DNA of 27,459 nt from a virus. Below are positions 498 to 27,459 of the stretch, piece after piece. The position numbers were made by a program, and so were the translations under genes. The first letter of the stretch is position 1. The number at the start of each line of letters is the position of its first letter. Below the pieces are notes generated by a model, which was given only the letters and a program-made list of their open reading frames with translations, made no database searches and was not told the DNA's origin. The stretch covers positions 1 to 27,459 of the IMG/VR virus record IMGVR_UViG_3300042319_002214. The stretch is one strand, 5' to 3'.

Positions 498-2537
498 CTA
501 TTCGGAAAGTAGCGGGCAGGCGACGCGGCTGAGGTCGCCGTAAATATCCTCTTGAAGGCGTTGAGCAACCATCGCCACACGTTTAAGTCGGAAGCGTCCG
601 GTGTTCACGTAGCGCAGCTGGAACTCATAACCATCGCGAGTGAACCCTCCGGTTTGCACGTCACACTTGTCCGGAGGCTGCGGGAGGGCAATGCGCGATC
701 TGGCTGGCGGCTGGTAGTATTTAACCTCTTGGCAGTTAATCACCGCAGGGGGGCAGGAAATCTCACCTGGCTCGCAGTTGCGGTACTTGGCGCAATCCTT
801 GATCTCGGCCCATGGTTGCCAGCACTCGCCCTCGTTAGCCTTGAAGTAGACCTTGGCTTCGATATTGCCCATCACCTGATCATACCACTGCTCGGCGCTG
901 ACTAGGCGCTTCTTGTTTGCGGGTTCACCAAATGTCAGCGAGCGGGTCTCAATGGTCCAGTCGATCGGCACATCATCAAACCCATCGAAGTCAAACTGGC
1001 CGTTCTTCGTGACCTCAAAGAGGCCGATGTCCCCTTGATTCAGTCCAAACATGAAGCAGCGTTCTTGCTTCTGGATTCGGATCGTCAGCATCTGGAACAC
1101 ATCGACTCCAGTCCAGACTCCCTCCCATGCCGGCGGGAGTTTTCGGCCTATGCCCGAGACCAGATCAAAGTCCAGCACCACGACTCCTCGGTGTACGATG
1201 CCTCGGTTGTTGACCTTCTGAGGCTGAATGGTCATCAGCATCCGATTGTCGAAGTTGACGGAGCTAGCAGCCGTCAGGTAAAAATCCGTGTCGTAAGCCA
1301 GCGCACGGGTCACTTGTCGGCTGATCGGAGTATTTCCAAGCTCAGTAAAGTCGCGCCTGGCGTAGATCAACGAGCGAATACCGTCCTGAGCACGGAAGAA
1401 AAGATCACCGTTTACCGGCACGATGGATTCGTGGTTGAACGATCCGAAGTTCAGGAGTGCAAATCGCTGGATAGGATAACTGAGATCCTTCCAAACATCC
1501 CGGTCCACAGGCGCGTTGAACGCGTAAGTGGCGGTCGGGGTGAACACCAGCAGGTCGCCGTCGCCAAGGGACGTGTCCAGGTTGGCCGCGAATGCCAGCC
1601 CTGTAATCGGACCGTTTGAGACCGCAAAGGCGCCGCCTTCATTGATGAACGTGTTTTCCGTAAATCGAATCACGCTGTCTCGACCAAAAGCAGGATCGCC
1701 GTAGACTAGGTCTCCGCCGTAGTATTCCGATCCATTGGCAACCCAGAGCCGGCCTTTTCCGTAAGCCATCGGGCCTCCAACGGGAACCTCATTGCTTGCA
1801 GCTCGTCTAAACGAAGTTCCGTCGTAGAGATATGGCGCATTCTGCTCGTCTTGAATGATTAACCAGTTCTCTGCCTGCTGAAAGTAAACGTGATCCGCAT
1901 TCGGATTATTTGCCGCTAGCAAATATCCGGTGAAATTCGGCCCCAGAAGAGGTCCGGCATCAACTCCTGGGCTGTAGGTCGTGAAAGTTGTTGGGCTGGG
2001 AATCGTCTGGACAATGAAGTCTCCGAAAAATCCTGCGGAAAAACTCGCTGCAACAGGTTCCGGAAGTCGCACCACCATTCCTGGAAATAGCCCATGCGGC
2101 GCTCCGCATACATAAGTCGCAATATTTGACACGCGGCCGCGTGTGCTTACGGAAAATGTGCTTGTTTGCGGAGTTTGATCTGTAACTAGGAAATTATTTC
2201 CTATGTCGATCTGGAAGACTTTGCCTCCGATTGAAGCGTAAATGTAGGGGTCTCCGTTGTCGTTGGTGTAAGATCCGCACCCTTGAAAAAACCCCTCTTT
2301 AAACGCCGATTGCACCGCTGCGTTGTAGTAACCGCCGTTGTAGAGCACGGTTGGATCGGCAAACTTCAGCAGTTTGGTCCAAATCCCAGGCCGCGCTTTC
2401 GGAAATCCTCCGCGCACCGTCGTGTTCACCGCCCATGCTAGCTGGTTCGGTTGAATGAGTGAGGGCGAAAAACCGCTATCCACCCCACCTTCAGCGGTGA
2501 GGAGGCCATCTACTATGCGATTTTTTTCTGCGACCAT
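498..2537 (-). CDS. Tail/virion structural protein (tail-hub or nozzle-like), 679 aa
   Basis: A 679-residue protein without signal peptide or membrane segment. The first 50 residues (VDGLLTAEGGVDSGFSP, then PNQLAWAVNTTVRGGFPKARPG) resemble an opening I recall from large tail proteins of short-tailed environmental phages; a role like the gp12 nozzle of T7-type phages is inference. The middle is rich in short beta stretches and contains a PHGLFPG ... PSPTTFTTYSPG segment like the one in the downstream tailspike gene. The C-terminal 100 residues are cysteine-rich (several spaced Cys between about 590 and 640). The ATG at 2537 is preferred to a TTG at 2579 because the extra 14 residues look like translated leader and would run into the divergent terL start. 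No clear Shine-Dalgarno sequence is present. It is divergent from terL, 43 bp away. Confidence 0.75.
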   Translation of the reverse strand: MVAEKNRIVDGLLTAEGGVDSGFSPSLIQPNQLAWAVNTTVRGGFPKARPGIWTKLLKFADPTVLYNGGYYNAAVQSAFKEGFFQGCGSYTNDNGDPYIYASIGGKVFQIDIGNNFLVTDQTPQTSTFSVSTRGRVSNIATYVCGAPHGLFPGMVVRLPEPVAASFSAGFFGDFIVQTIPSPTTFTTYSPGVDAGPLLGPNFTGYLLAANNPNADHVYFQQAENWLIIQDEQNAPYLYDGTSFRRAASNEVPVGGPMAYGKGRLWVANGSEYYGGDLVYGDPAFGRDSVIRFTENTFINEGGAFAVSNGPITGLAFAANLDTSLGDGDLLVFTPTATYAFNAPVDRDVWKDLSYPIQRFALLNFGSFNHESIVPVNGDLFFRAQDGIRSLIYARRDFTELGNTPISRQVTRALAYDTDFYLTAASSVNFDNRMLMTIQPQKVNNRGIVHRGVVVLDFDLVSGIGRKLPPAWEGVWTGVDVFQMLTIRIQKQERCFMFGLNQGDIGLFEVTKNGQFDFDGFDDVPIDWTIETRSLTFGEPANKKRLVSAEQWYDQVMGNIEAKVYFKANEGECWQPWAEIKDCAKYRNCEPGEISCPPAVINCQEVKYYQPPARSRIALPQPPDKCDVQTGGFTRDGYEFQLRYVNTGRFRLKRVAMVAQRLQEDIYGDLSRVACPLLSE

Positions 2538-2580
2538 GACGCTTGAACGTATTGAAAGGCCGCAGCAGCATTCCCGCAAG

Positions 2581-4353
2581 ATGAATGAAAGCGCAGATTA
2601 CCTGTCTATACCGTGGCGTACAAAAGACCGCTTTCTCATCGAAGCCGAAATGGTTCGTCGCGGCGGTTACATAATGTCCGGCGGCGTCAAGTACGGATGC
2701 GGGAAATATCATCACTTTAAAGCGGCCATGACCGCGCTTTGGCCTCACTTCGATTGGCACATCTGGTCTGACCTGCTGATTAAGACTTTCGCGGAAAATC
2801 AAGAGGTTGGAATCATGGGCCCAGGATCATCTGGCAAGACCTACACCTCCGCAGCATTCGGGCTCTGCACGTTCTACATCTACCCCACCGGCACCTCGAT
2901 CATCATGTCGTCAACGACGCGTGAGGGTCTCCAGCTGCGAATCTGGGGCTCTATCAAGGAGTTGCACAACAAGGCTAAGGCCCGCCGGGAATGGCTTCCT
3001 GGGCGCGTTATCGAGAGCCGGTTTATTCTGACCAGTTCTGACCAAGACGCCGAGGCACAGGACTTCCGCGACGGAATCATCGGCGTAGCGTGCAAGGTCG
3101 GCGGCACGTTCGTTGGTCTCTCAAACTACGTCGGGCTCAAGAATGACCGAGTGATGTTGATTGCAGACGAGGCGTCTCTAATGAGCCGGGGATTCCTCGA
3201 TTCAGTCGCGAACCTTCGCAAGAATCCTGAGTTCAAGCTGATCGCGATGGGGAATCCCAAGGATCGCAACGACGCGCTTGGGGTTGTCTGTGAGCCGCAC
3301 TCTACGATGGGCGGCTGGGAAGGCATTGAATACCTTGAGCAGACACGCACCTGGAAAACGCGGGCGCCAGGAGGGGTTGCTGTCCAGCTATGTGGGTACG
3401 ACACGCCGAACGCGAAGTTCCCAAAAGGCACCAATCCGTACCGAGGCATCATCACGCCAGAGCAGATTCAGGCGGACTTGGATTACTACGGCCGAGACTC
3501 GTTGCAGTTCTCGATGATGAACCTCGGGCTGCTGCCCCGAGACGGCGGTACACGGCGCGTGGTCACGATGTCGCTGTGCGAGCAGAACCAGGCGTTCGAT
3601 GAAATTGTTTGGCAGGGCGCCGACAAGATCACACGAATCATCGGGATCGACGCGGCGTACTCAGGCATCGGTGGTGACCGATGCGTTATGATCGACCTTC
3701 AGTACGGCCCGGACAGCACTGGGCGCATCGTGCTAGCATTTGCTGAGGCCCCGATCGTAATCCCTGTGACGGCCGTCAAAGCGCAGCAAGCGGAGGAGCA
3801 GATTGCCGAGTACGTGCTTCTGTACTGTAAGCAACGCAACATCCCACCTAATCAAGTGGGATTCGATTCCACCGGACGCGGCACGCTGATGTCTGCGTTC
3901 GCCCGCCTGTGGTCGCCCGAGGTGGTGCCGATCGAGTTTGGTGGCCGGCCGACGGATCGCCCTGTTCGGAAAGGTGATCCGAAGACTGAGCGTGAAGCCT
4001 ACGGCAAGATGGTCACGGCCCTTTGGTATTCGTCGCGCCTGCTGATCGAATCCAAGCAGCTGAGGAAACTTCCCCGGGAAGTCGCCGAGGAAGGGTCGAT
4101 GCGCGAATGGGGAATCTCCCGCACTGGTTTGATCGACGTGGAGCCCAAGCACAAAACTAAGGAACGCATGGGTCGATCCCCTGATTTATGGGACTCTTTC
4201 GTGGTCGCACTTGAAATGGCTCGCAGAACGGGATTTGAGATTGCAGGCGGGCAGGGGGTTGGTATTGTCAAGCGACAGACACCAAAGTGGCTGACACGTC
4301 TGTCAGATAAGCGTCGCACGATGGATACTGAACATTCGCTAACCTATTCCTAA
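2581..4353 (+). CDS. terL: Terminase large subunit (packaging ATPase/nuclease)
   Basis: This 590-aa protein is the motor that translocates phage DNA through the portal and cuts it. The ATPase half shows Walker A GPGSSGKT at about residues 80-87 and Walker B VMLIADEAS at about 191-199. The nuclease half shows the RNase-H-like acidic set: GIDAAYSG (Asp near 357), FDSTGRGT (Asp near 429) and SPDLWDSF (near 533-540). Length fits the family. I start it at ATG 2581: upstream in-frame ATGs at 2515 and 2536 overlap the divergent gene and would add residues with no family character. No Shine-Dalgarno sequence precedes it. No convincing small terminase lies beside it; a gene at 19966-20310 is only a remote candidate. 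It heads the packaging/portal/scaffold operon. Confidence 0.95.
   Translation: MNESADYLSIPWRTKDRFLIEAEMVRRGGYIMSGGVKYGCGKYHHFKAAMTALWPHFDWHIWSDLLIKTFAENQEVGIMGPGSSGKTYTSAAFGLCTFYIYPTGTSIIMSSTTREGLQLRIWGSIKELHNKAKARREWLPGRVIESRFILTSSDQDAEAQDFRDGIIGVACKVGGTFVGLSNYVGLKNDRVMLIADEASLMSRGFLDSVANLRKNPEFKLIAMGNPKDRNDALGVVCEPHSTMGGWEGIEYLEQTRTWKTRAPGGVAVQLCGYDTPNAKFPKGTNPYRGIITPEQIQADLDYYGRDSLQFSMMNLGLLPRDGGTRRVVTMSLCEQNQAFDEIVWQGADKITRIIGIDAAYSGIGGDRCVMIDLQYGPDSTGRIVLAFAEAPIVIPVTAVKAQQAEEQIAEYVLLYCKQRNIPPNQVGFDSTGRGTLMSAFARLWSPEVVPIEFGGRPTDRPVRKGDPKTEREAYGKMVTALWYSSRLLIESKQLRKLPREVAEEGSMREWGISRTGLIDVEPKHKTKERMGRSPDLWDSFVVALEMARRTGFEIAGGQGVGIVKRQTPKWLTRLSDKRRTMDTEHSLTYS
3731..3739 (+). repeat. TGCTAGCAT site 1
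   Basis: Inside terL. Shares the 13-mer TCGTGCTAGCATT with site 2, which has the opposite orientation. Confidence 0.75.
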
Positions 4354-5418: not shown

Positions 5419-7692
5419 ATGAGTTTCAAAGAACCAAGTAGAGTCTGGAATGTTGTTAGTGCGATGCTAGAGGCTGAACAGCCTCGTTCTCGCAATCGCG
5501 CTCGCATTAACGCTACCTTTAACGGTAATCCTCCATACAGCGAAGAGGAGGCTCGCGACAATAAGATCCAGACAAACGTCAACTTTCTGGAAGGTACGCG
5601 CATCATTCATGCGGCACGCCAGCAGTTTACGAACGCGTTCCTGAAGCCTCAGAATTACTTTTCTGTGGGCCTCGATACCGGCCCTCGGGATAAGCGCACT
5701 GAGTGGGGCAACATCATCACGAAGCAGTTGAACCGCGTGATGAAGCGGTCTCCGAAGTATTCCACGGTCCTGGAATCTCAGTTTGCTGCGACGGTTCTTC
5801 ACGGCATTGGGCCGGTGACGTGGCTGCGTGATCGTGAATGGTGCCCTTCGGCCCGTGGAACTGAAGACATTCTGGTTCCCACGAACACGCTGACCACGAT
5901 GGAGAATATGTCGCACTTCGCGATCTACACCTCCTTCACAGCTGCGGACCTAATCCGCATGACTCGCGGTGAGAACGTCGATCCCGGTTGGAACCTGAAG
6001 CTGGTGAACGAGCTGCTGGCTGCGATGATTCAGCGCGAGGCTACGAGTCTCCAGGTGAACGACTGGTCCGGCCAATACTTCCCTGAAAAGATTGAGGAAG
6101 ACTTCAAGGAGAACTCTGGTTACTGGGGTTCCGATGCGACTCCAGTGCTGCGGTGCTACGATTTCTACTTCCTAGACACGACCAGCGACGATCCTTCCTG
6201 GCGCCGCCGCATCATCGTTGACCAGTACAACAGCGGGATCGGTAATATGCAGACCGCTGGTCAGTGGCTCTTCGATGCCGGCGACCGCTGCTACGGCCGG
6301 GATATCTTCGAGTTGATGCACATTCAGTTTGCTGACGGCGCTGTTGTGCCTCCGTTCCGATGGCACTCAGTGCGATCACTGGGCTACCTGCTTTATGCGG
6401 TGTGCCACCTCCAGAATCGCCTGCGCTGTAAGTTCACCGACTCGGTCTTTGAGCAGATGCTTTGGCTCTTCCGCAATGTCGCTGATGGTGACATGGAACG
6501 GATGGAGAAGATCGACCTGGTGAACATGGGCGTAATTCCCGAGGGTCTCTCCTGGGTTCCGCAGTCTGAGCGTCACGTTGTCGATTACCCGATGCTGTCT
6601 GGCGCTATGGCGATGCACCGACAGATCATGTCTGAGTCGAGTGCTGCCTACACGCAGGACGTTAATGACGGATCATCGAAGGAGCTGACCGCTACCGAGG
6701 TTATGGCTCGCGTGAACAACGCCAACGCGTTGATGGGCTCAATGCTTACACGCGCCTACACGCAGCAGAATTTCCAGTACCGCGAGATCGCTCGCCGGTT
6801 CTGCACGATCGACCACCCCGACTGCAAACAGTTCCGCCGCAAGTGCGAGGCTGACGGTGTTGATCCCTCCGTCTGGAACAACCTCGACGCATGGGACATC
6901 ATGCCCGAGCGCGTCATGGGTTCCGGCAACAAGATGCTGGAGATCGCTCAGGCTGACCGCCTAATGGCTATCCGACCGCTGCTAGCTCCGGATTCTCAGG
7001 CCGAGGTCGTGCACATGTATGTCGAGGCCAACACTGATGATCCCCTCCTGGCGAATCGCTTGGCTCCGATCGACAACAAGCCGGTCTCCCCGGCTGTCGA
7101 ACGCGCTACTCTGGCGTGGGGCACGCTTATCGACGGTCAACCTGTCGTTATCGCAAGCGCACTCAATCGCCCCGAGTACATCCAGACGCTGCTTCAGATG
7201 CTTGGTGGCGCCATTGGTCGTATTGAAAAGGAAGGTGGCGGCATGACCACGATGGATCGCGTGCTGGGATTGGCCAACGTAATCCAGCATATCCAGGAGC
7301 AGATTCAGTTGATCTCTCAGGACCCGGGCCAGGAGCAGAACATCAAGCTCTACAACGACGGCATCAGTCAGGCTTCAAACTACATCAAAGGCTACGTGCA
7401 GCGCCTTCAAGAGCAGGCTCAAGCTCAGGCCGAAGCCGGCGCAGCTGGCAACGGAATGGACCCCGAGACCGCTGCGAAGATCCAGGCGATGCTCATCACC
7501 GCGCAGTCCAAGTCGCAGATCGCTGCGGCAAACTCCGAACAGAAACGGATTCAGAAGCAGGTCGCGTTCGATCAAGATCAGCAGCGCAAGAATGCTAGCA
7601 CGATCGCTGAGGCTCAGCGTAAAGGCGCTCTGACTCGCGCAGACATTGCTGCCATGGATCTCAAGACTCAGGCCAATATTCTTAACCAATGA
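5419..7692 (+). CDS. Portal protein
   Basis: A 757-aa protein with the composition and layout of large podovirus-type portals, which form the dodecameric ring at one capsid vertex for DNA passage. The N-terminal third has an RINATFNGNPPYSEEE segment and conserved-looking N-V-N-F-L-E-G and ARQQFTNAFLKP; residues about 400-530 carry the charged stem/crown-like region (QSERHVVDYPML, SSKELTATEVMARVNNANALMG), where TATEV is a feature I recall from portals. The last 120 residues are Gln/Ala-rich and helical, likely the barrel/crown. ATG 5419 is preferred over 5362 because it lies just after the stop of the previous gene and the extra 19 residues look spurious. The stop overlaps the next start (ATGA). 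Confidence 0.88.
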   Translation: MSFKEPSRVWNVVSAMLEAEQPRSRNRARINATFNGNPPYSEEEARDNKIQTNVNFLEGTRIIHAARQQFTNAFLKPQNYFSVGLDTGPRDKRTEWGNIITKQLNRVMKRSPKYSTVLESQFAATVLHGIGPVTWLRDREWCPSARGTEDILVPTNTLTTMENMSHFAIYTSFTAADLIRMTRGENVDPGWNLKLVNELLAAMIQREATSLQVNDWSGQYFPEKIEEDFKENSGYWGSDATPVLRCYDFYFLDTTSDDPSWRRRIIVDQYNSGIGNMQTAGQWLFDAGDRCYGRDIFELMHIQFADGAVVPPFRWHSVRSLGYLLYAVCHLQNRLRCKFTDSVFEQMLWLFRNVADGDMERMEKIDLVNMGVIPEGLSWVPQSERHVVDYPMLSGAMAMHRQIMSESSAAYTQDVNDGSSKELTATEVMARVNNANALMGSMLTRAYTQQNFQYREIARRFCTIDHPDCKQFRRKCEADGVDPSVWNNLDAWDIMPERVMGSGNKMLEIAQADRLMAIRPLLAPDSQAEVVHMYVEANTDDPLLANRLAPIDNKPVSPAVERATLAWGTLIDGQPVVIASALNRPEYIQTLLQMLGGAIGRIEKEGGGMTTMDRVLGLANVIQHIQEQIQLISQDPGQEQNIKLYNDGISQASNYIKGYVQRLQEQAQAQAEAGAAGNGMDPETAAKIQAMLITAQSKSQIAAANSEQKRIQKQVAFDQDQQRKNASTIAEAQRKGALTRADIAAMDLKTQANILNQ
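7592..7600 (-). repeat. TGCTAGCAT site 2
   Basis: Inside the portal gene, minus orientation. Confidence 0.75.
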
Positions 7693-7946
7693 CCCCAAAA
7701 CAAGAGTTTCAAAAAAACCAACAGCGCCTCAACGAGCTTAAGCGCCTCCTGGATAATCAGGACTTACAAGCTGCCCTACTCGTTGCGTTCAATAATTTCT
7801 GCTGGAACCTGCCAGCCTCAGAGAATCCTCAACATGGATGGAATGCAAACTGTCGCAGACAGGGCGCAAAGGCATTGATTGATGAACTCAACGGGCTTGC
7901 AGAGATGCGGAAAGAAAAACCGACCACCACTCAAAACCTCGAATGA
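7689..7946 (+). CDS. Small hypothetical protein between portal and scaffold
   Basis: An 85-aa soluble protein, charged at both ends, with a helical N-terminus (QQRLNELKRLLDNQDLQ), a central aromatic patch (FNNFCWNLP ... GWNANCRRQGA) and a second helix. No family recognised. It is joined by ATGA overlaps to the portal upstream and to the scaffold-like gene downstream, so it is translated with both; a minor head or assembly role is an inference from position only. Confidence 0.7.
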   Translation: MTPKQEFQKNQQRLNELKRLLDNQDLQAALLVAFNNFCWNLPASENPQHGWNANCRRQGAKALIDELNGLAEMRKEKPTTTQNLE

Positions 7947-9190
7947 GAATCCTATTATCACCTGATGCCCCAACTGATCGCGGGGCGGATTACACTGACG
8001 CCTTTGCGGGAATCGACGCCATCGAAGGCAGCGGGCTGGACAACCCGATGGGATCACCGTCCCAGCAGACTCCTCAAGAGGTAGCACCTGCGCCTGCGGT
8101 ATCCGCTCCAGAGGTTCAGGCGGCTGCCCCCGCTGACCTTGCTAAGCCTAAGAACGAGGATTTCTTCAACCTCGATAAGTTCACCCCAAAGAAGGATGAA
8201 CCGGCACCGACCGCTAAGGCTGAGCCCGCCAAGCCTGAGCCCACGTCCATCAAGCAGTTCCGCGAGCAGTACGACTTGACCAAGAAAGAGCGCGATGATT
8301 TCGCGGCCAAGGTCTCTGAGCTTGAGCGTGCTAGGTCTGAAGGCACTCGGAAGGAAGTCGAAGAGGCTACCAAGTCGCTGAAGGCCGAGATGGATTCCAT
8401 CCGGAAGAACGCCGAGGAGCTGGACACCGAGGTGCGGTATCTGAACTACACGCGTTCCGGTGAGTACAAGCAGAAGTACGAGACCCCTCTGCGCGAAGCC
8501 TGGCAGACCGCCCTAGGCGATATTGACGGAATCCGCGTCACTGATGCCGATGGCACTGAGCGCGACGCTAGTCACCATGATATCATGGCGATCCTAAATG
8601 TGCCGGTCGCCAAGGCCGCGATTATTGCTCAGGAGACGTTTGGGCCAGCTGCGCCCGAGATCATGGCCCACCGCCGTCGGTTACTCGAACTCACTCAGGC
8701 TCGCGACAAGTCTATCGCTGAATGGAAGGAGAAGGGAGCGCAGCGTGAGGTTGAGCGATCGAAGCAGGTAGAGGGGCGTCAGTCTCGCTCACGTGAGCTG
8801 TTTGAATCGCAGTTCTCGGATTACGAAAAGAGTCACCCGCAGCTGTTCGGCAGGGAAGACGGTGACGATGATGGCAACAAGCTCCTGGACGAGAGCGATC
8901 GGCTGATCCGAATCGCGCTGAAAGGCGAGGGCGTCGATGCTGACATGGGCTACGAGGACAAGGTTGACCTCATTACGAAGGCCCAGGCCCAGGTTGCCCT
9001 ACGTGCTCGGGCCTACGGCCGTGAGCGCCTACGAGTAATCCGTCTCCAGCAGAAGGTGGCGGAGTTGGAGAAGAAGGTTGGAAAGGTCCGATCCTCTGAA
9101 CCCGGTCAGGGTGAGGGGACTTCGACTGCGACGCGCATGGCTCCTAAGAGTGCTGAAGACGCGATCGACGAGTTGCCGTCGGCGTACTGA
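7943..9190 (+). CDS. Probable capsid scaffolding protein
   Basis: A 415-aa protein with the character of phage scaffolds: an N-terminal disordered stretch rich in Ala, Pro, Lys and Glu (residues 30-105, with repeated AxPAxP and KPEP), then long charged helices likely to form coiled coils (about 105-160 and 235-290, and 340-385), and a flexible Gly/Ser/Thr tail. No catalytic motif and no protease triad is visible. Position after the portal is the usual place for a scaffold, although the capsid gene here is over 3 kb away on the other strand. The start overlaps the previous stop (ATGA). A minor internal virion protein is the alternative. Confidence 0.72.
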   Translation: MRILLSPDAPTDRGADYTDAFAGIDAIEGSGLDNPMGSPSQQTPQEVAPAPAVSAPEVQAAAPADLAKPKNEDFFNLDKFTPKKDEPAPTAKAEPAKPEPTSIKQFREQYDLTKKERDDFAAKVSELERARSEGTRKEVEEATKSLKAEMDSIRKNAEELDTEVRYLNYTRSGEYKQKYETPLREAWQTALGDIDGIRVTDADGTERDASHHDIMAILNVPVAKAAIIAQETFGPAAPEIMAHRRRLLELTQARDKSIAEWKEKGAQREVERSKQVEGRQSRSRELFESQFSDYEKSHPQLFGREDGDDDGNKLLDESDRLIRIALKGEGVDADMGYEDKVDLITKAQAQVALRARAYGRERLRVIRLQQKVAELEKKVGKVRSSEPGQGEGTSTATRMAPKSAEDAIDELPSAY

Positions 9191-9191
9191 G

Positions 9192-9437
9192 CTACCACCT
9201 TAAGCAGCTCCAAAACTTCGCAGATAACTTCGTGCCCGGTGTGTCACAACCATGCCGGGCACGAAAACTTTTACGGTTCTTCGGAATGTGCTTCTTAATG
9301 CTCATGTTCGGATCACCGAAACGCACGAGCTTCACTTGCCCGCCCTCCTTAGCCAACACAGCAGACTTCTTTGAGGCGCCTGGCGTAGACTTCGGCTTGT
9401 TGTACCCGGCAAATTTCTGGCCTCGGTAGGTAATCAT
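9192..9437 (-). CDS. Small basic conserved phage protein
   Basis: An 81-aa, strongly basic protein. The central VKLVRFGDPNMSIKKHIP and the C-terminal SFRARHGCDTPGTKLSAKFWS, ending in CLRW, match a small family I recall from many phages (K-x-RFGD ... FRARH-C ... K-x-WSC-W), whose function I do not know; it is often grouped with head or lysis genes. Cys in the C-terminal half could pair or bind metal. The ATG at 9437 overlaps the stop of the upstream lipoprotein gene (ATGA), which fixes the start. It ends 1 bp from the convergent scaffold gene, with no obvious terminator between them. Confidence 0.78.
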   Translation of the reverse strand: MITYRGQKFAGYNKPKSTPGASKKSAVLAKEGGQVKLVRFGDPNMSIKKHIPKNRKSFRARHGCDTPGTKLSAKFWSCLRW

Positions 9438-9658
9438 TTGGCTTTCGGCAGTACGTACCACCCAGCTGGAAGTGTAACCCGACTCGGACCGGAGAGCTTG
9501 CCGTCCTTATCGAACGCGTAGACGCGGGCTTTCACCGGCTCTGCTAGCATCACGGGATCACCGCTAGGAACGAGGATCACTTTCGTCTGCTGGCAGCCCA
9601 GGCAGATTGGCAACACGAGCAGCCAAATCGTTCTTGAGAGGCTTTGGCGCATTTCCAT
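9434..9658 (-). CDS. Small lipoprotein, outer-spanin-like
   Basis: A 74-aa protein with an Arg-containing N-terminus, a hydrophobic stretch (IWLLVLPICLG) and a cysteine at about residue 22 in the context CLGC-QQ, close to but not a perfect lipobox because position -3 is Cys. The mature part contains VPSGDPVMLAEPVKARVYAFD and ends VTLPAGWYVLP, a pattern I recall from small lipoproteins in phage lysis regions. An outer-membrane spanin (Rz1-like) that fuses inner and outer membranes at lysis is the likeliest role, which would imply a diderm host. Its first 95 nt overlap another minus-strand frame (9564-9731), as in Rz/Rz1 pairs. The start could also be the ATG at 9652. Confidence 0.72.
   Translation of the reverse strand: MEMRQSLSRTIWLLVLPICLGCQQTKVILVPSGDPVMLAEPVKARVYAFDKDGKLSGPSRVTLPAGWYVLPKAK
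9542..9550 (+). repeat. TGCTAGCAT site 3
   Basis: Inside the lipoprotein gene; part of an 11-mer CTGCTAGCATC shared with sites 4 and 5. Confidence 0.75.
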
Positions 9659-9731
9659 CTTCTACTTTTGGTGCAGGCGTCTCCCGGAGGAAATCCAGGA
9701 GAGCCTTCACAAGTTGATAGATCCAGTTCAA
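9564..9731 (-). CDS. Small gene with TTG start overlapping the lipoprotein gene
   Basis: A 55-aa frame from TTG at 9731 to TAG at 9564. It begins with an amphipathic or weakly hydrophobic helix (NWIYQLVKALLDFLRE) followed by a charged, Pro-rich tail. It fills what would otherwise be a 69-bp gap between the holin-like gene and the lipoprotein gene, and its TTG overlaps the holin stop (TTGA), the same coupling seen at nearly every other junction here. The lipoprotein gene begins inside it in another frame. This is the Rz/Rz1 arrangement, but the helix is short for an inner-membrane spanin. No ATG and no Shine-Dalgarno sequence are present, so it remains a candidate. Confidence 0.5.
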   Translation of the reverse strand: MNWIYQLVKALLDFLRETPAPKVEDGNAPKPLKNDLAARVANLPGLPADESDPRS

Positions 9732-9919
9732 ACCGGAGGAACGACAGGAGTCTTCTCGGCGTCCTTGGCCATTATAAGACCGATTCCGGCAGTCACCGCT
9801 GCGATGGTCGAAGCGATGTCGATGTTGGTGCTGGGGTCGTTATCAAAGGCAGCCCGTAAAGCACCGCCAGCAGCAATGAGAATTGCGCCAATTCCTGCGA
9901 GAGTAGTTTTCCAGTTCAT
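9728..9919 (-). CDS. Holin-like small membrane protein
   Basis: A 63-aa protein with two hydrophobic segments: LAGIGAILIAAGGALRAAF (about residues 7-25) and IASTIAAVTAGIGLIMA (about 35-51), separated by a polar turn (DNDPSTN), and a charged C-terminus (KDAEKTPVV). The ending TAGIGLIMAKDAEKT is typical of a common phage family usually annotated as holin. A holin forms the lesion in the inner membrane that times lysis. The start overlaps the stop of the previous gene (ATGA), and it lies just before the spanin-like pair, which supports a lysis role. Confidence 0.78.
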   Translation of the reverse strand: MNWKTTLAGIGAILIAAGGALRAAFDNDPSTNIDIASTIAAVTAGIGLIMAKDAEKTPVVPPV

Positions 9920-10086
9920 TTTTTAATGGCTTTGTAGAGTCCGATTGCAGCAGCTATAAAAGCCAACACAGCAGCACCAAGCTGAAACCACTGTGTCAGT
10001 TGCGGAAGAAATGAAACCGCACCAGCAGCGGCAGCGGTAGCAAGAGAGATTCCAACTCCACTGTTACTGTTGGTGTCGGTTTGCAT
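9916..10086 (-). CDS. Second tiny membrane protein, holin or antiholin candidate
   Basis: A 56-aa protein with a polar Thr/Asn/Ser start (MQTDTNSNSG), then an Ala-rich stretch (ISLATAAAAGAVSFL), then a hydrophobic segment LGAAVLAFIAAAIGLYKAIKK ending in lysines that would face the cytoplasm. One or two membrane segments are possible. It overlaps its upstream neighbour (TAATG) and its downstream neighbour (ATGA), so three genes are translationally linked. Two adjacent tiny membrane proteins of this kind often act as holin and antiholin or a two-part holin; which is which cannot be told from sequence. Confidence 0.68.
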   Translation of the reverse strand: MQTDTNSNSGVGISLATAAAAGAVSFLPQLTQWFQLGAAVLAFIAAAIGLYKAIKK

Positions 10087-10352
10087 TACTCGTTAGGTTG
10101 AACGGATTCAATCACCGGCTCATGATTCGCTAGCTTGTAGGCCGCGACAACCGCAGGAGTCCACAACGCATTGGCAATCGAGACCACCTCGGTCGGCTGG
10201 CCTTCCAGTGAGTCACCGGGGTTGAGTGTGTACTGCGAGGTAATCTCAGAACCGACAACCGCGCCATCGCTGTCATAATCGATTCCGGTCGTAACGAACA
10301 ACGAGTTGTTCTGGTTGACCTGCACTGAGACGATATCAACTGGTACGATCAT
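10086..10352 (-). CDS. Small virion-associated protein, tandem paralogue B
   Basis: An 88-aa soluble protein, paralogous to the gene just upstream. Both share Y-x-L-x-PG-(S/D)-x-L-x-GQP-x-x-V-V-x-IANA-(L/V)-WTPA-x-VAAY over their C-terminal halves, while the N-terminal halves have diverged in sequence but keep the same predicted beta pattern. The family occurs after tail-fibre genes in phages as far as I recall, function unknown. It starts inside the stop of its paralogue (4-nt overlap) and its stop overlaps the holin-like start. A fibre accessory or chaperone role is inference from position. Confidence 0.75.
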   Translation of the reverse strand: MIVPVDIVSVQVNQNNSLFVTTGIDYDSDGAVVGSEITSQYTLNPGDSLEGQPTEVVSIANALWTPAVVAAYKLANHEPVIESVQPNE

Positions 10353-10600
10353 TGGATGGTGGGGCTAGGGGTTTGGCTTGCGGCGTAGGCTGCGACAGCG
10401 GCAGGAGTCCAGACGGCGTTTGCTATCGCTACAACCTGCTCGGGCTGACCCGTAAGGTCTGAGCCGGGAGCGAGGCAATAGCGGCGGAATGTGGAAGCCT
10501 TCACGGCTTCGCCATCGACGATCTGGTCCGCTAGTCGAACTTGAAGCGTCGTGTTGGGAAGAACTTCGCAAAGCGAGAAAATGGTGCGTTCTGTTAGCAT
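10349..10600 (-). CDS. Small virion-associated protein, tandem paralogue A
   Basis: An 83-aa protein forming a tandem pair with the next gene. It carries the shared core RRYCLAPGSDLTGQP and VVAIANAVWTPAAVAAY, and ends in a polar tail. It follows the tail-fibre gene by 4 nt. The most likely history is a local gene duplication followed by divergence of the N-terminal half. Function not known; position suggests a fibre-associated or fibre-assembly protein. Confidence 0.75.
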   Translation of the reverse strand: MLTERTIFSLCEVLPNTTLQVRLADQIVDGEAVKASTFRRYCLAPGSDLTGQPEQVVAIANAVWTPAAVAAYAASQTPSPTIQ

Positions 10601-10604
10601 ATGG

Positions 10605-11762
10605 TTAGACAGAGTAGGTGCAGTTAAAAATCAACACACTAGTGTTAATGAAATTTGCATCAGTCAAATTGGTTACAGTACCAGCGGTTGTGATATTTTC
10701 CAATTCAATGACACTTACGTTTTGACCCACATATCCACAAGGTACATTCAAAAATGATATGCGATCAAGTCTAAGGGATACTGATGTATATTCTCCCGCT
10801 GCATTGGCACTAGTAAATGGAAGTCCGGTAAGTTTAGCGTTTCCTGTTGAGGAACCTTTGGCCGTTAAAGTAATGATTCCATTTACTGTTACAGCCCTTC
10901 CAACTTTTGTGTATCTTCCGCTGAATGTGCCTGTCATTCCAACGCTGGCACCTCCAAAAGTAATACTCGGCGTAAACGTCCCCTCCTCGTAATCGTTCAG
11001 TACGTTCGCAGTAGCTGTTCCGGTTCCGCCGGTAACAGCGGAGAAGTCGATGCCTTTGCCGGACGTTGACATTACCAAGTTACCGTTGGCAATAGACACA
11101 TTACCACCGTTTAATACGGAGGCAACAACAGCTCCGTTTACAATAAATCGGATAGGTCTAGTAGATGCGGAAACAATATCAATATTAGAGTCATCTCCAC
11201 CAATGTAGGCTTGTTGAGTTGTTCCATCATTTGCGAAAAATCTCAACGCATTGGCATTATCCGCACGGCCACGAATATTGATTCCAGTTCCGCTAGTATT
11301 GGATTGCACCTCAAGCGGAGCGGTCATTCCAGAGGCAAGACCAATACCCACCCGATTGTTCGTCGAATCAACCTTCAGCGTACTCGTATCCACCGTCAGA
11401 TCGCCGGTGATGGTGAGAGCATCCGTAGCCTTATTGTACGTCAACCCCGCATCCCCCGCCAACACCCCACCATCATTAAAAATCACCTGCTTATCCGCAC
11501 CAGCGCCACCGGGAGCCGGCGGGGAGAACACCATCCGCATCATCTGATCGACGACGATCGACATGATGTCGTCGCTTGGCTGGCGAACAATCTCGTAGAA
11601 CTCGTCCCACAGCTGTTGCGTGGTCAGGTTCGGATTGAGCGGCGTGCCGACGTTTGCGTTAGCAAGTACGGCGGCAAGCGTGGCGCGGATCTCATTGGTA
11701 GACTTCAGGTTTAGAACCTGTTGAGCCTGCGTAATAAGGGTTTGGATCGAAGGAGTGGCCAT
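10605..11762 (-). CDS. Tail fibre protein with exchangeable C-terminal domain
   Basis: A 385-aa fibre. Residues 1-80 are helical (NLKSTNEIRATLAAVL ... WDEFYEIVRQPSDDI), likely the virion anchor; about 85-150 is a Gly/Asp/Thr stalk with the frequently seen GGVLAGDAGLTYN and LTITGDLTVD segments; about 150-250 is a beta-rich shaft; and the last 130 residues start at DYEEGTFTPSITFGG and run through GRYTKVGRAVTVNGIITLTA, a trimeric tip module that recurs in many environmental phages and probably touches the host receptor. Base composition changes here: 10605-11000 is visibly richer in A+T than the first half of the gene, which fits horizontal exchange of the tip. No Shine-Dalgarno sequence; the gene follows its upstream neighbour by 3 nt. 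Confidence 0.88.
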   Translation of the reverse strand: MATPSIQTLITQAQQVLNLKSTNEIRATLAAVLANANVGTPLNPNLTTQQLWDEFYEIVRQPSDDIMSIVVDQMMRMVFSPPAPGGAGADKQVIFNDGGVLAGDAGLTYNKATDALTITGDLTVDTSTLKVDSTNNRVGIGLASGMTAPLEVQSNTSGTGINIRGRADNANALRFFANDGTTQQAYIGGDDSNIDIVSASTRPIRFIVNGAVVASVLNGGNVSIANGNLVMSTSGKGIDFSAVTGGTGTATANVLNDYEEGTFTPSITFGGASVGMTGTFSGRYTKVGRAVTVNGIITLTAKGSSTGNAKLTGLPFTSANAAGEYTSVSLRLDRISFLNVPCGYVGQNVSVIELENITTAGTVTNLTDANFINTSVLIFNCTYSV

Positions 11763-25099: not shown

Positions 25100-25277
25100 C
25101 GGCGTAACGGTATCTTTGAATGGTGGTATAGGAGAGGCGAAAGAGGCGTGCTAAATCGGCATCCGTCACGTCGATCGGGGCGGATTTGATGGCGTCTTGT
25201 TTGGATTGAGAAATCCTAGGACGTCCGACTCTGGATTTGAATCCGAGGAATTTTTTGATTCGGTCGATGAGTTTCAT
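25050..25277 (-). CDS. Small helix-turn-helix protein
   Basis: A 75-aa basic protein. MKLIDRIKKFLGFKSRVGRPR is followed by KQDAIKSAPIDVTDADLARLFRLSYTTIQRYRY, a helix-turn-helix in which LARLFRLSYTTIQRYR is the likely recognition helix region, then an Arg-rich tail. GRPR may act as a minor-groove hook. Likely a DNA-binding regulator; no operator is evident. Its ATG overlaps the previous stop (ATGA), which fixes the start. Confidence 0.75.
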   Translation of the reverse strand: MKLIDRIKKFLGFKSRVGRPRISQSKQDAIKSAPIDVTDADLARLFRLSYTTIQRYRYADGRPRRKIRSNRQGTP

Positions 25278-25816
25278 TCGCAGCTGTAGGTTTCGGTGGT
25301 GGTGATAAGTCCGGTTGGCCATTCAGTTTCAGTGAATGACTTCTCGATGAAGATTACTTTGTCGGTAGGTTGAATTGTGAGGCGTTCGCCATCGGTTCGG
25401 ATGAACATGAACTCCTTGGCTTGGTTAGGCTGACGGCTCCAGCTATCGCCGATGGGAGCGGCGGTGAAGAGGTAGTCGCCAGTGGTGATTAAGTCATCGC
25501 ATTTGACTTTGCATTCGAGTCCTCGCAGGAATGTATACTCGATGGTGGTGAAGTCGGTTCCGTAGCAATCCCATCGCTGAGCGTTTTGTTTGCTCCAGAT
25601 GAGGTCAGGCTGTAGATCGAATGCCATTGCGTGCGGCGGTACGGCCCGGTAGACCGCTCCGCATTCCAACATGATGGTGCAACCCCACATTCGACCAGGG
25701 ATAGAGACCAGGCCAAACCAGACGCATGGGATAAACCCGGTGCGACTGGAGATGAACGAAGCATCGACGAGACAGTATTGGTGGTGGGGGATTTGCCCGG
25801 ATTGTGAGTAGGTCAT
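25274..25816 (-). CDS. Conserved phage protein of unknown function
   Basis: A 180-aa protein with several aromatic and cysteine positions: HHQYCLVDASFISSRTGFIPCVWFGLVSIPGRMWGCTIMLECGAVYR is spread over its first 60 residues and recalls a phage family (YCLVD ... GF-PCVWFG ... GC-(V/I)-LE-GAVYR-(V/L)-PPHA) of unknown role. The second half is strand-rich and contains GDYLFTAAPIGDSWSRQPNQAKEF. It overlaps the downstream HTH gene by ATGA, and its upstream neighbour by 4 nt. Confidence 0.72.
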   Translation of the reverse strand: MTYSQSGQIPHHQYCLVDASFISSRTGFIPCVWFGLVSIPGRMWGCTIMLECGAVYRAVPPHAMAFDLQPDLIWSKQNAQRWDCYGTDFTTIEYTFLRGLECKVKCDDLITTGDYLFTAAPIGDSWSRQPNQAKEFMFIRTDGERLTIQPTDKVIFIEKSFTETEWPTGLITTTETYSCE

Positions 25817-26013
25817 GCTAGCAGATGTTTGATGATTAGGTTCCGCTCTTTACCCTTCGCTCGTAGAATGCTCTCAAGCACAACGTGAGGGTTGATTGTC
25901 GCAACGTGCTTCCATTCTGGATTGCCATCCACGTTTCGAGCTGTCTCCAGACTCTCTACACGCACCAGTCCGTTAAAAGCGTGGACGTAGATGAATGCGG
26001 GGCTGTCTTTCAC
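25813..26013 (-). CDS. Small hypothetical protein, GTG start after shared junction
   Basis: A 66-aa protein (FIYVHAFNGLVRVESLETARNVDG ... HVVLESILRAKGKERNLIIKHLLA) with a strand-helix layout; no family recognised. It starts with GTG within the stop of the previous gene, directly after a GGAGG of the repeated junction sequence that also codes the upstream EEAKP end. That junction gives it a clear ribosome-binding site. Confidence 0.66.
   Translation of the reverse strand: MKDSPAFIYVHAFNGLVRVESLETARNVDGNPEWKHVATINPHVVLESILRAKGKERNLIIKHLLA
25815..25823 (-). repeat. TGCTAGCAT site 6
   Basis: At the overlap of two minus-strand genes, minus orientation, next to the start codon of the 180-aa protein. 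Confidence 0.75.
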
Positions 26014-26025
26014 GGCTTGGCCTCC
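26010..26025 (-). repeat. Gene-junction cassette, copy 1
   Basis: GGAGGCCAAGCCGTGA on the minus strand. One sequence codes the EAKP ending of one protein, provides GGAGG for the next and holds the overlapping stop/GTG start. Copies at 26354-26369 and 27281-27296 are identical. Confidence 0.85.
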
Positions 26026-26357
26026 TCATGCGGAACCAACTTGTAGTCCCAGTCCTCAATGTGTCCAGAATCCCAGTCGCGGTGTTCGTTGATGAAGATC
26101 ATTCGGTAAATTCCGTCCTTGACATCATTCAGGTTGATTATTCGACCAATGACTGCATCGGCACCGCAAAAGGATGCATCTTCTTTGATGGAGTAGACGC
26201 ACTCCCAGTCGCTCTTGCGTTTGAGGAAATCGATTCGCTTCGTCGTGGCGAACCCGCGCTTGGTGTGGTAGTAGCTGGTTTTTACGCTGACCACCGCAAC
26301 GCTTGGTTTCGCTACAATTCCGGTTTCAGCGATGTCTTCCAATATCAACGCACTCAC
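26010..26357 (-). CDS. Hypothetical protein, GTG start after shared junction
   Basis: A 115-aa protein, strand-rich with alternating Lys/Asp/Glu (SYYHTKRGFATTKRIDFLKRK, DWECVYSIKEDASFCGADAVIGRIINLN), ending in EEAKP. A GTG further upstream (26387) is in frame but the GTG at 26357 sits right after GGAGG and overlaps the preceding stop, so it is the better start. No family recognised. Confidence 0.65.
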   Translation of the reverse strand: MSALILEDIAETGIVAKPSVAVVSVKTSYYHTKRGFATTKRIDFLKRKSDWECVYSIKEDASFCGADAVIGRIINLNDVKDGIYRMIFINEHRDWDSGHIEDWDYKLVPHEEAKP

Positions 26358-26369
26358 GGCTTGGCCTCC
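26354..26369 (-). repeat. Gene-junction cassette, copy 2
   Basis: Identical to copy 1 over 16 bp, at the junction of the 152-aa and 115-aa genes. Confidence 0.85.
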
Positions 26370-26812
26370 CCTCTGGCTTTGTTCCACAGATCAACGTCGT
26401 ATCCAAAGCCCAGTTCGTGGGCCATCAAGTCACCTCCTGTTTCAAGCGCGGCAACGTAGTCGTATAGCTTTGAGATGCGCTCTTGAGCGGCGTTGAGTTC
26501 GCGTTCGAGTTGGCGGGTGAAGTCGGCATCACAAACACGATGCTTTGAATCATGCGGAAGGAATGCTTCAGCATCCGTCCTCGGCGTCTCACCGATCATT
26601 TTCGTGACGTCAGGAATATGATCGCTCACGGCTTCAATTTCGAGTTCTCGGATGCGCTCATCGTAGAACTTCCTCTCCCATTCTAGCTTGTCCCACAGAG
26701 CGCGGAGACTGTTTTCGAGTTCGGTGACGCGATGCTTAAGATCTTCGTTCTCTTTCGCCATTGCTCCGATGGATTTGCACAAGCGTTCGTGCGCTTCGTA
26801 TTGAGGGTTCAT
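26354..26812 (-). CDS. Coiled-coil protein, apparent fusion of two modules
   Basis: A 152-aa protein. The first 60 residues are a coiled coil (SIGAMAKENEDLKHRVTELENSL, LEWERKFYDERIRELEIEA). About residue 62 the text switches to VSDHIPD and then GETPRTDAEAF and FTRQLERELNAAQERISKLYDYVAALE, the module found as a separate gene at 26809-27048. At the switch the DNA keeps AAGCCGTGAGCGATC, a near-copy of the junction that elsewhere separates two genes. So two genes seem to have fused through a frame-aligned junction. It ends in GEAKP. The ATG at 26812 overlaps the previous stop. Confidence 0.75.
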   Translation of the reverse strand: MNPQYEAHERLCKSIGAMAKENEDLKHRVTELENSLRALWDKLEWERKFYDERIRELEIEAVSDHIPDVTKMIGETPRTDAEAFLPHDSKHRVCDADFTRQLERELNAAQERISKLYDYVAALETGGDLMAHELGFGYDVDLWNKARGEAKP

Positions 26813-27048
26813 CGCTTGTTCTCCTTTGCTCGCTGCCATGCATTTGCCAGCAACCGATAGTTTGAGTCGGAAATAGTACCGTCCTTCAGCCACTCAAGCA
26901 GCTCGTCACCAGTAATCTTGAGTAGCTTGATGCGCTCGTTGGCCGCGTTGAGTTCGCGTTCGAGTTCTCTGGCTAGACCTGAGTCTACAATGCCTCTATC
27001 GCTGTCGATAAAATGTTCCTGTTCATCCGTCCTCGGTGTATCGCTCAT
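26809..27048 (-). CDS. Small SDTPRTD-type phage protein
   Basis: A 79-aa protein opening SDTPRTDEQEHF, then SGLARELERELNAANERIKLLKITG, an alpha-helical coiled-coil segment. The SDTPRTD opening followed by a (R/K)ELERELN helix is shared with the fusion gene downstream and with the gene upstream (SDTPIND), and I recall it in many environmental phages; role unknown. The start ATG overlaps the preceding stop, with GGGAGG upstream. Confidence 0.75.
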   Translation of the reverse strand: MSDTPRTDEQEHFIDSDRGIVDSGLARELERELNAANERIKLLKITGDELLEWLKDGTISDSNYRLLANAWQRAKENKR

Positions 27049-27284
27049 TTCGCCTCCCTCGCTTTGAGCATCGCGTCGGCCATTGCGTATGCATCTTTGG
27101 CCGCTTTATCCCATGCATCTTTGCCTTCGTAATATCCAACATCAATTGATTGTCCTGCTAGATTTCCCTGCAAAGCCGCCGCCGCGAAGTAGTCGCGTAG
27201 GGTCATGCCTTCCGTGGTGATATGCGACAGTCCTGCTGGTGCCGGAAACGCCGGTCCTCCGTCGTTGATTGGTGTATCGCTCAC
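27045..27284 (-). CDS. Small conserved phage protein (NDGGPAFP ... LRDYFAAAAL)
   Basis: A 79-aa protein: SDTPINDGGPAFPAP, then TTEGMTLRDYFAAAALQG and AKDAYAMADAMLKARE. The NDGGPAFP / GM-LRD-(Y/W)FA / AY-x-x-ADAML-ARE set is a widespread small phage family with no assigned role that I know. A GTG start at 27284 follows GGAGG and overlaps the stop of the upstream gene. Its C-terminal REAK resembles the EAKP ending of its neighbours. Confidence 0.78.
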   Translation of the reverse strand: MSDTPINDGGPAFPAPAGLSHITTEGMTLRDYFAAAALQGNLAGQSIDVGYYEGKDAWDKAAKDAYAMADAMLKAREAK

Positions 27285-27296
27285 GGCTTGGCCTCC
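27281..27296 (-). repeat. Gene-junction cassette, copy 3
   Basis: Identical 16 bp to copies 1 and 2, joining the partial gene at the right edge to the NDGGPAFP gene. Confidence 0.85.
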
Positions 27297-27459
27297 TTCT
27301 CCTCCCACAGCAACAGATCAGCGCGGAGTGCATCGTTCTCGGATTCGAGTTGCTTGATCCGATCCTCCAGTTTTCGCACCTGAAAGGCGATTGCGCGGAG
27401 TTCGCGTGGATGGTTGCAATCGGGAGACTCCGCTAGGAAAAGGATTCGTTGTTCTTCTT
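27281..27459 (-). CDS. Coiled-coil protein, C-terminal part (runs off right edge)
   Basis: The frame is open from base 27459 and gives the last 58 residues of a protein: CNHPRELRAIAFQVRKLEDRI followed by KQLESENDALRADLLLWEEKEAKP. The heptad pattern indicates a coiled coil. It ends EAKP through the junction cassette. The start and promoter lie outside the window, so the promoter of this minus-strand operon is not visible. Confidence 0.7.
   Translation of the reverse strand, partial: EEQRILFLAESPDCNHPRELRAIAFQVRKLEDRIKQLESENDALRADLLLWEEKEAKP

Follow-up and report, generated by a model that had tools for sequence, protein, structure and literature searches.

Apparent exchange of small genes at a short repeated joint in a gene array of uncultured bacterial viruses

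In a large group of uncultured bacterial viruses, small genes lie in an array along which the end of one gene and the start of the next meet at a common short joint. Comparison of the arrays in hundreds of such viruses indicates that whole genes have been exchanged at the joint, whereas the order of the core genes has been conserved. It is judged probable that the array consists of cassettes exchanged by RecT-type annealing at this short boundary sequence, which also couples translation. The window, i.e. the whole stretch of DNA analysed, is a virus contig of 27,459 bases (IMG/VR record IMGVR_UViG_3300042319_002214); its small-gene operon occupies the minus strand from 24.8 kb up to past the right end and thus runs off the window.

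The sequence GGAGGCCAAGCCGTGA was found in three exact copies in the window, all on the minus strand and each at a gene joint of this one operon. No further copy is present in the 27,459-base record, even when one mismatch is allowed, and shuffled sequences gave a mean of 0.34 matches even with three mismatches allowed. Each copy encodes the EAKP end (the last four codons and the stop) of the upstream gene, places GGAGG 8-12 nt ahead of the next start and joins TGA and GTG in a 4-nt overlap (GTGA). A sequence-only reading had described identical copies at 26010, 26354 and 27281 in these terms, together with a looser version at 27045 in which EAK and stop meet ATGA; reading of the open reading frames bore out both descriptions. 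The joint at 26809, the degenerate joint in gene D and the continuation of the operon beyond the window had escaped it. The features, in operon order, are as follows:

27281..27457, minus strand: gene A, coiled coil, ending in LLLWEEKEAKP and stop; 5' end beyond the window
27281..27296, minus strand: joint 1, GGAGGCCAAGCCGTGA, EAKP and stop of gene A / GTG start of gene B
27045..27284, minus strand: gene B, predicted ORF of 79 aa, beginning VSDTPINDGGPAFPAPAG, phrog_2201-like
27045..27057, minus strand: ATGA-type joint GGAGGCGAAATGA, EAK and stop of gene B / ATG start of gene C
26809..27048, minus strand: gene C, predicted ORF of 79 aa, beginning MSDTPRTD and containing LERELNAANERI
26809..26824, minus strand: ATGA-type joint GGAGAACAAGCGATGA, KENKR and stop of gene C / ATG start of gene D
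26354..26812, minus strand: gene D, 152 aa, fused double cassette (MNPQYEAHERLCKSIG and VSDHIPDVTKMIGETPRTD)
26621..26634, minus strand: degenerate joint AAGCCGTGAGCGAT, in-frame read-through inside gene D, identical to 27276-27289
26354..26369, minus strand: joint 2, GGAGGCCAAGCCGTGA, EAKP and stop of gene D / GTG start of gene E
26010..26357, minus strand: gene E, 115 aa, VSALILEDIAETG
26010..26025, minus strand: joint 3, GGAGGCCAAGCCGTGA, EAKP and stop of gene E / GTG start of gene F
25813..26013, minus strand: gene F, 66 aa, VKDSPAFIYVHAFNGL, the last cassette
25274..25816, minus strand: fixed gene closing the array, phrog_3704, labelled ferredoxin

The ATGA-type joints recur as well: the 13-mer GGAGGCGAAATGA occurs 35 times in 80 arrays gathered without regard to the joint, and GGAGAACAAGCGATGA was seen again in G014 and in arrays gathered in that way. 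At the degenerate joint AAGCCGTGAGCGAT, homology blocks start or stop in dozens of loci (operon coordinates 822-830), and the two halves of gene D are separate genes in relatives, the second being free-standing in G023; hence, gene D is taken to be a fusion of two cassettes at the joint. L101 (8258-8707) has a similar read-through ORF, in which a different reading frame of the joint gives EGGQAVS.

The terminase of the window (2455-4353) has at least 80 relatives in IMG/VR at 81-100% amino acid identity, and those that are complete are circular, with a length of about 46-48 kb. The search of relatives that the sequence-only reading had proposed returned GGAGGCCAAGCCGTGA from at least 120 IMG/VR stretches, many with 2-5 copies; a few single-copy matches in unrelated contigs look like chance. 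The 24-mer AAAGCCAAGGAGGCCAAGCCGTGA was likewise found in at least 120 stretches. Terminases of joint-bearing contigs, some of which may be partial, are 89-100% or about 31% identical to that of the window, or show no detectable similarity to it, so that the joint, with some of its genes, is probably common to several lineages of phages. The arrays of several long or circular relatives lack the exact 16-mer. No close relatives were found among cultured phages; in the search for hosts, the 24-mer had no match in 84,980 prokaryote genomes and a profile of the SDTPRTD protein gave two weak matches only. In the 92,531-base contig G024 (L327-L329) the joints recur at a spacing of exactly 46,900 bases, and the contig therefore looks like a head-to-tail dimer of one genome. 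The 62,200-base contig G042 (L081, L128), which carries gene E at 90% amino acid identity, possibly belongs to a temperate or larger lineage that has these cassettes in common with the others. Compared with relatives, the window also has a second variable region at 9200-11400, amid otherwise collinear core blocks, with a tail-fibre-like gene (10605-11762; phrog_17970, phrog_9942).

Since searches based on the joint select for it, arrays were also collected by means of the fixed closing gene (25274-25816), giving an unbiased sample of 288.6 kb in 80 loci (L340-L418, L234). This sample contains 67, 62, 21 and 22 copies of the joint at 0, 1, 2 and 3 mismatches (172 in total), all in the sense orientation; no antisense copy with 0-3 mismatches was found in it. 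The exact joint is present in 36 of the 80 arrays and a copy within two mismatches in 56. Around the exact 16-mer, raised information content extends about 12 nt to the upstream side and 4 nt to the downstream side; farther out, the information content is close to zero. The idea of a system of identical joints was thus upheld by this conservation and by the shuffling described below, but not that of a single invariant 16-mer, as the joint is a family that includes GGAGGNNAAGCYGTGA and the ATGA forms. An origin of the 16-mer by chance or from codon usage was ruled out by the shuffles, the copy counts in the unbiased sample and the choice of codons.

This choice of codons also bears on the standard alternative for phage mosaics (PMC3029335), namely that DNA breaks anywhere by illegitimate recombination, that only intact, translated genes survive selection and that the joint is kept as a coupling signal only. 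In keeping with it, genes with quite different joints turn over in the same phages too. However, coupling needs GGAGG and GTGA and not the GCC AAG between them, yet 30 of 32 unrelated upstream tails use exactly GAGGCCAAGCCGTGA. GCC makes up 92% of Ala codons at the ends with EAKP, stop and GTGA (35% in the long core genes of these phages) and AAG 100% of Lys codons (76% in long core genes). The DNA of the joint is conserved beyond coding need, and a coupling signal alone makes no such demand. Moreover, the k-mers found at breakpoints are the joint and one other repeat, not gene ends in general, and illegitimate recombination with selection is regarded as unlikely.

Exchange at the joint was examined in 150 nt on each side of 240 distinct exact joints from IMG/VR, flanks being classed as shared at 80% identity or more and as unrelated below 45%. 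Among pairs of these joints, 154 share the upstream side only, 143 the downstream side only and 16 both; families recur among these pairs, which are not independent events, and the counts show the pattern and not the number of exchanges. In upstream-shared pairs the mean identity stays at about 0.94 as far as the joint, is down to 0.43 at +16 and amounts to 0.21-0.33 thereafter; in downstream-shared pairs it is 0.20-0.30 until -18, 0.50 at -9, 0.75 at -3 and about 0.9 past the joint. The drop in identity, from about 94% to about 28%, takes place no more than 3-6 nt from the joint. The same pattern was observed for proteins: downstream proteins are unrelated in 144 of 155 upstream-shared pairs, against a background relatedness of 4%, and upstream proteins are unrelated in 103 of 144 downstream-shared pairs, the remainder of the latter probably being coiled-coil paralogues. 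Where both joints match within one mismatch, there are 169 breaks on the upstream side, every one of them positioned 12-36 nt ahead of the start codon; of the 116 on the downstream side, 110 lie no more than 6 nt from the stop.

Indels between the same core neighbours can mimic swaps in an ungapped nucleotide comparison, and the control with core genes was hence made at the protein level, with genes at least 80% identical between contigs and with identical copies excluded. The downstream neighbour was homologous in 0.89 of core pairs, compared with 0.34 of joint pairs with up to one mismatch and 0.36 of those with 2-3 mismatches. The sequence-only reading had predicted that gene order would be shuffled between copies, and had named a fixed order with a freely drifting 16-mer as the opposite outcome. 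It was the shuffled order that relatives showed, with a joint that does not drift freely: 38 of 43 recurrent tail types (those with at least two distinct contexts) are followed by two or more different heads, up to 6, and 32 of 37 recurrent head types are preceded by two or more different tails, up to 9. These numbers refer to distinct contexts, counts per family with identical windows unmerged having been inflated. The structural and replication regions remain collinear in the same genomes.

Individual cases illustrate the pattern. The tail of gene A, GYDVDLWNKARGEAKP and stop, has six different downstream neighbours in the comparison set, beginning VSALILEDI (the window), VSLEEQLRN (L050, L042), VNTVPDKCPF (L279), VSTSPRSDV (L034), VNHIGDANKK (L013) and VRHPSYCC (L049). 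Gene E recurs as a single block reaching from one joint to the other, with 94-98% nucleotide identity, at seven loci in six contigs. The closest relative, G009, is collinear with most of the window at about 93% up to 26026, the far edge of joint 3; it keeps gene F, the gene upstream of F is a different one and the joint there is the ATGA variant GGAGGCCAAATGA. Duplication within an array is seen in G023 (L296), in which the cassette head VSVEERILFLAESPDCNHPREL occurs twice with different tails (rotated coordinates 29862-30044 and 28820-28999).

Such patterns could in principle be produced if unrelated contigs had been joined at the repeated 16-24-mer during metagenome assembly; the relatives are all metagenome contigs and some of them end inside arrays. 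Recurrence argues against this: when joint contexts were compared at 90% identity or more over 316 nt, 65 of 260 were present in more than one locus, and after loci in the same contig had been removed by hand more than 40 of the 260 still recurred in different contigs, mostly from different metagenomes. In addition, circular contigs close with overlaps of 101-127 nt, which implies assembly words far longer than the joint, and core regions are collinear in the same contigs. An assembly artefact is therefore considered most improbable.

Breakpoints were also sought de novo, as 9-mers over-represented at the ends of homology blocks (at least 88% identity) in 57 non-redundant arrays; this result rests on arrays chosen by the fixed flanking gene and not by the joint. 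Two sequences emerged, each at about 4-5 times background, namely the joint and GACCGCATCAAGCGGCTGGAGG, with the ATGA joints (GAAATGAGCG) next. Around the joint, three-prime block ends lie at +12 to +19 and five-prime block ends at -16 to -1. About 9-11% of block ends fall at the 16-mer (within one mismatch), compared with 3-4% of random positions. As these are a minority of block ends, exchange appears to be concentrated at several repeated short sequences, the joint being one of them. The second hotspot, GACCGCATCAAGCGGCTGGAGG, is as strong as the joint and lies inside coiled-coil genes, where it encodes DRIKRLEE; it seems to let heads and tails of coiled-coil proteins be exchanged within genes. 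Thus, the proposal that the joint is a swap site held, but the joint is not the sole one. In the window, no copy of GACCGCATCAAGCGGCTGGAGG was found within three mismatches; gene C (26809-27048) contains a diverged form of the RIKRLEE anchor.

The like behaviour of a coiled-coil repeat that has no role in translation is what might be expected if the joint were an accidental repeat that has homogenised itself by concerted evolution, identical copies recombining most, without any benefit and with real shuffling as a by-product. Several array genes are indeed paralogues with common heads and tails. On the other hand, the strict sense orientation at gene ends and the content of GGAGG and GTGA suggest a role in translation too. 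The mechanism is the same as in the reading preferred here, from which this one differs as to whether modularity was selected, and the two are not mutually exclusive; as an account of the array, concerted evolution without benefit is thought rather unlikely, though by no means negligible.

The preferred reading, exchange by annealing at the joint, draws on the genes that lie beside the array. In complete genomes two genes on the same strand precede the array. One encodes an annealing protein of the RecT family (phrog_561, 1.4e-68; PF03837 above cutoff), the other an exonuclease VIII-like nuclease (phrog_412, 1.9e-65; PF12684); in G016 (L292) they occupy 7657-8655 and 6666-7460, respectively, of the minus strand. 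A profile search found RecT in 32 of 43 contigs, the other 11 being contigs that may be partial or in which the model may miss divergent forms; the RecT proteins fall into score groups of about 1e-70, 1e-25 and 1e-10. Of the 19 contigs in which both the joint and RecT were found, 18 have RecT on the strand of the joints and upstream of them, at a distance of 1.7-5.2 kb from the nearest one, the exception being G036, a linear contig with a weak RecT match.

An array of one-gene cassettes that share a site also calls to mind integrons, which are reported from some phage genomes (PMC9892861), and the joint could accordingly be a target of integron-like or other site-specific recombination. A tyrosine recombinase was nevertheless found in only one of the 43 contigs (G042, the sole joint-bearing contig tested with one) and a serine recombinase in none of the 43; the joint DNA folds no better than shuffled sequence, unlike attC, it is mutable, as its 172 copies at 0-3 mismatches demonstrate, and an unrelated second anchor behaves alike. 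On the recombinase counts and the unfolded joint, an integron or serine-recombinase model was rejected, and site-specific recombination of any kind at the joint is very improbable. Homologous or annealing recombination is the best-supported candidate mechanism, with RecT as the likely agent of exchange.

Most cassettes consist of one small gene running from GTGA to GGAGGCCAAGCCGTGA, the end of one gene and the start of the next lying on one joint of 16 nt, often of 24 nt (AAAGCCAAGGAGGCCAAGCCGTGA). According to the proposed mechanism, the joint would do two jobs. It ends one protein and, by its Shine-Dalgarno sequence and overlapping TGA/GTG, would couple translation of the next, and it would provide a short identical sequence where recombination could take place between different phage DNAs or between separate positions of the same array. 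A crossover inside the joint would leave genes intact, in frame and still coupled regardless of their content, so that genes could be gained, lost, swapped or fused without the linker being rebuilt. The most likely agents of recombination are two proteins of the phage itself, the RecT annealing protein and the RecE-like nuclease, whose genes lie immediately upstream and point the same way. Homologies of 16-24 nt are short for efficient Red/RecET recombination, and exchanges at the joint must hence be rare or assisted by more extensive homology nearby, for example in shared KAKEAKP tails. It was reported that phage Rad52-like annealing proteins, RecT included, recombine short homologies and drive mosaicism (De Paepe et al. 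2014; PMC3945230).

That translation is coupled at the joint is suggested by its content; the accessory genes presumably benefit the phage, and modularity may have been selected rather than arisen as a by-product. More tentatively, with the balance somewhat against it, the joint could be a selected compatibility standard by which distinct phage lineages draw small accessory genes from one pool, exchanged by RecT. If true, this would be a natural one-gene plug-in system built on annealing and not on a site-specific recombinase. An objection to exchange at boundary sequences has been that most boundaries yield no such sequence (PMC3029335). In the present arrays the sequence is obvious, repeated, common to many phages, located at mapped breakpoints and found beside a plausible recombinase, and a decades-old idea on the shuffling of virus genomes becomes open to direct test in a large group of uncultured bacterial viruses. 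The system predicts measurable recombination frequencies; the joint alone offers a way to find cassette genes, and it points to a natural rule for designing single-gene swaps in which translation stays coupled.

Among known systems, the ninR region of lambda is a chain of interlinked genes. The conserved boundary sequences of lambdoid phages (Susskind and Botstein 1978; Clark et al. 2001 on HK620) resemble the joint, being short and conserved, with overlapping stop and start, and proposed as sites of module exchange by homologous recombination, as related in PMC3029335. Two lambdoid-type features were found in the present arrays: the same short sequence stands at the boundaries of different genes, and it is there that homology between relatives begins or ends. 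Unlike in lambdoid phages, a single near-identical joint of 16-24 nt recurs within the array and in many different phages, and exchange at it is backed by breakpoint mapping in hundreds of contexts.

T4-type phages have mobile regulatory cassettes called PeSL (Arbiol et al. 2010; Comeau et al. 2014), in which a repeated short intergene element likewise mediates shuffling of small accessory genes, according to PMC4503421. PeSL consist of a promoter and terminator stem-loops between genes, whereas the present joint lies inside coding sequence and carries ribosome-binding and stop/start signals with no stable stem. A scan of the array, blind to other promoter types, gave no sigma-70-like promoter; terminator-like sites in the array were not above chance and none was on the operon strand. 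A reading of the array as promoter/terminator cassettes receives no support from these scans. The start-associated sequences (SAS, GGGATAGGAGCCC) of cluster K mycobacteriophages are a 13-nt asymmetric repeat just upstream of many starts and, like the present joint, often precede genes of different families (PMC3203893). In the passages of that source that treat them, SAS are tied to translation initiation, about half have an inverted repeat and no swap at SAS is described; unlike these, the present joint also codes for the end of the preceding gene, and apart from the GGAG core the two sequences are unrelated.

Like integrons, the arrays hold one-gene cassettes exchangeable via a shared site; unlike them, they are without an integrase in nearly all contigs, the site is not folded like attC and the gene ends are coupled and not separate. 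In the system of De Paepe et al., the homologies are incidental (PMC3945230), whereas here a standard short joint is repeated at gene ends. The idea of boundary sequences is an old one; what is new is the repetition of an identical joint, the scale on which it occurs and the presence of a second anchor inside genes.
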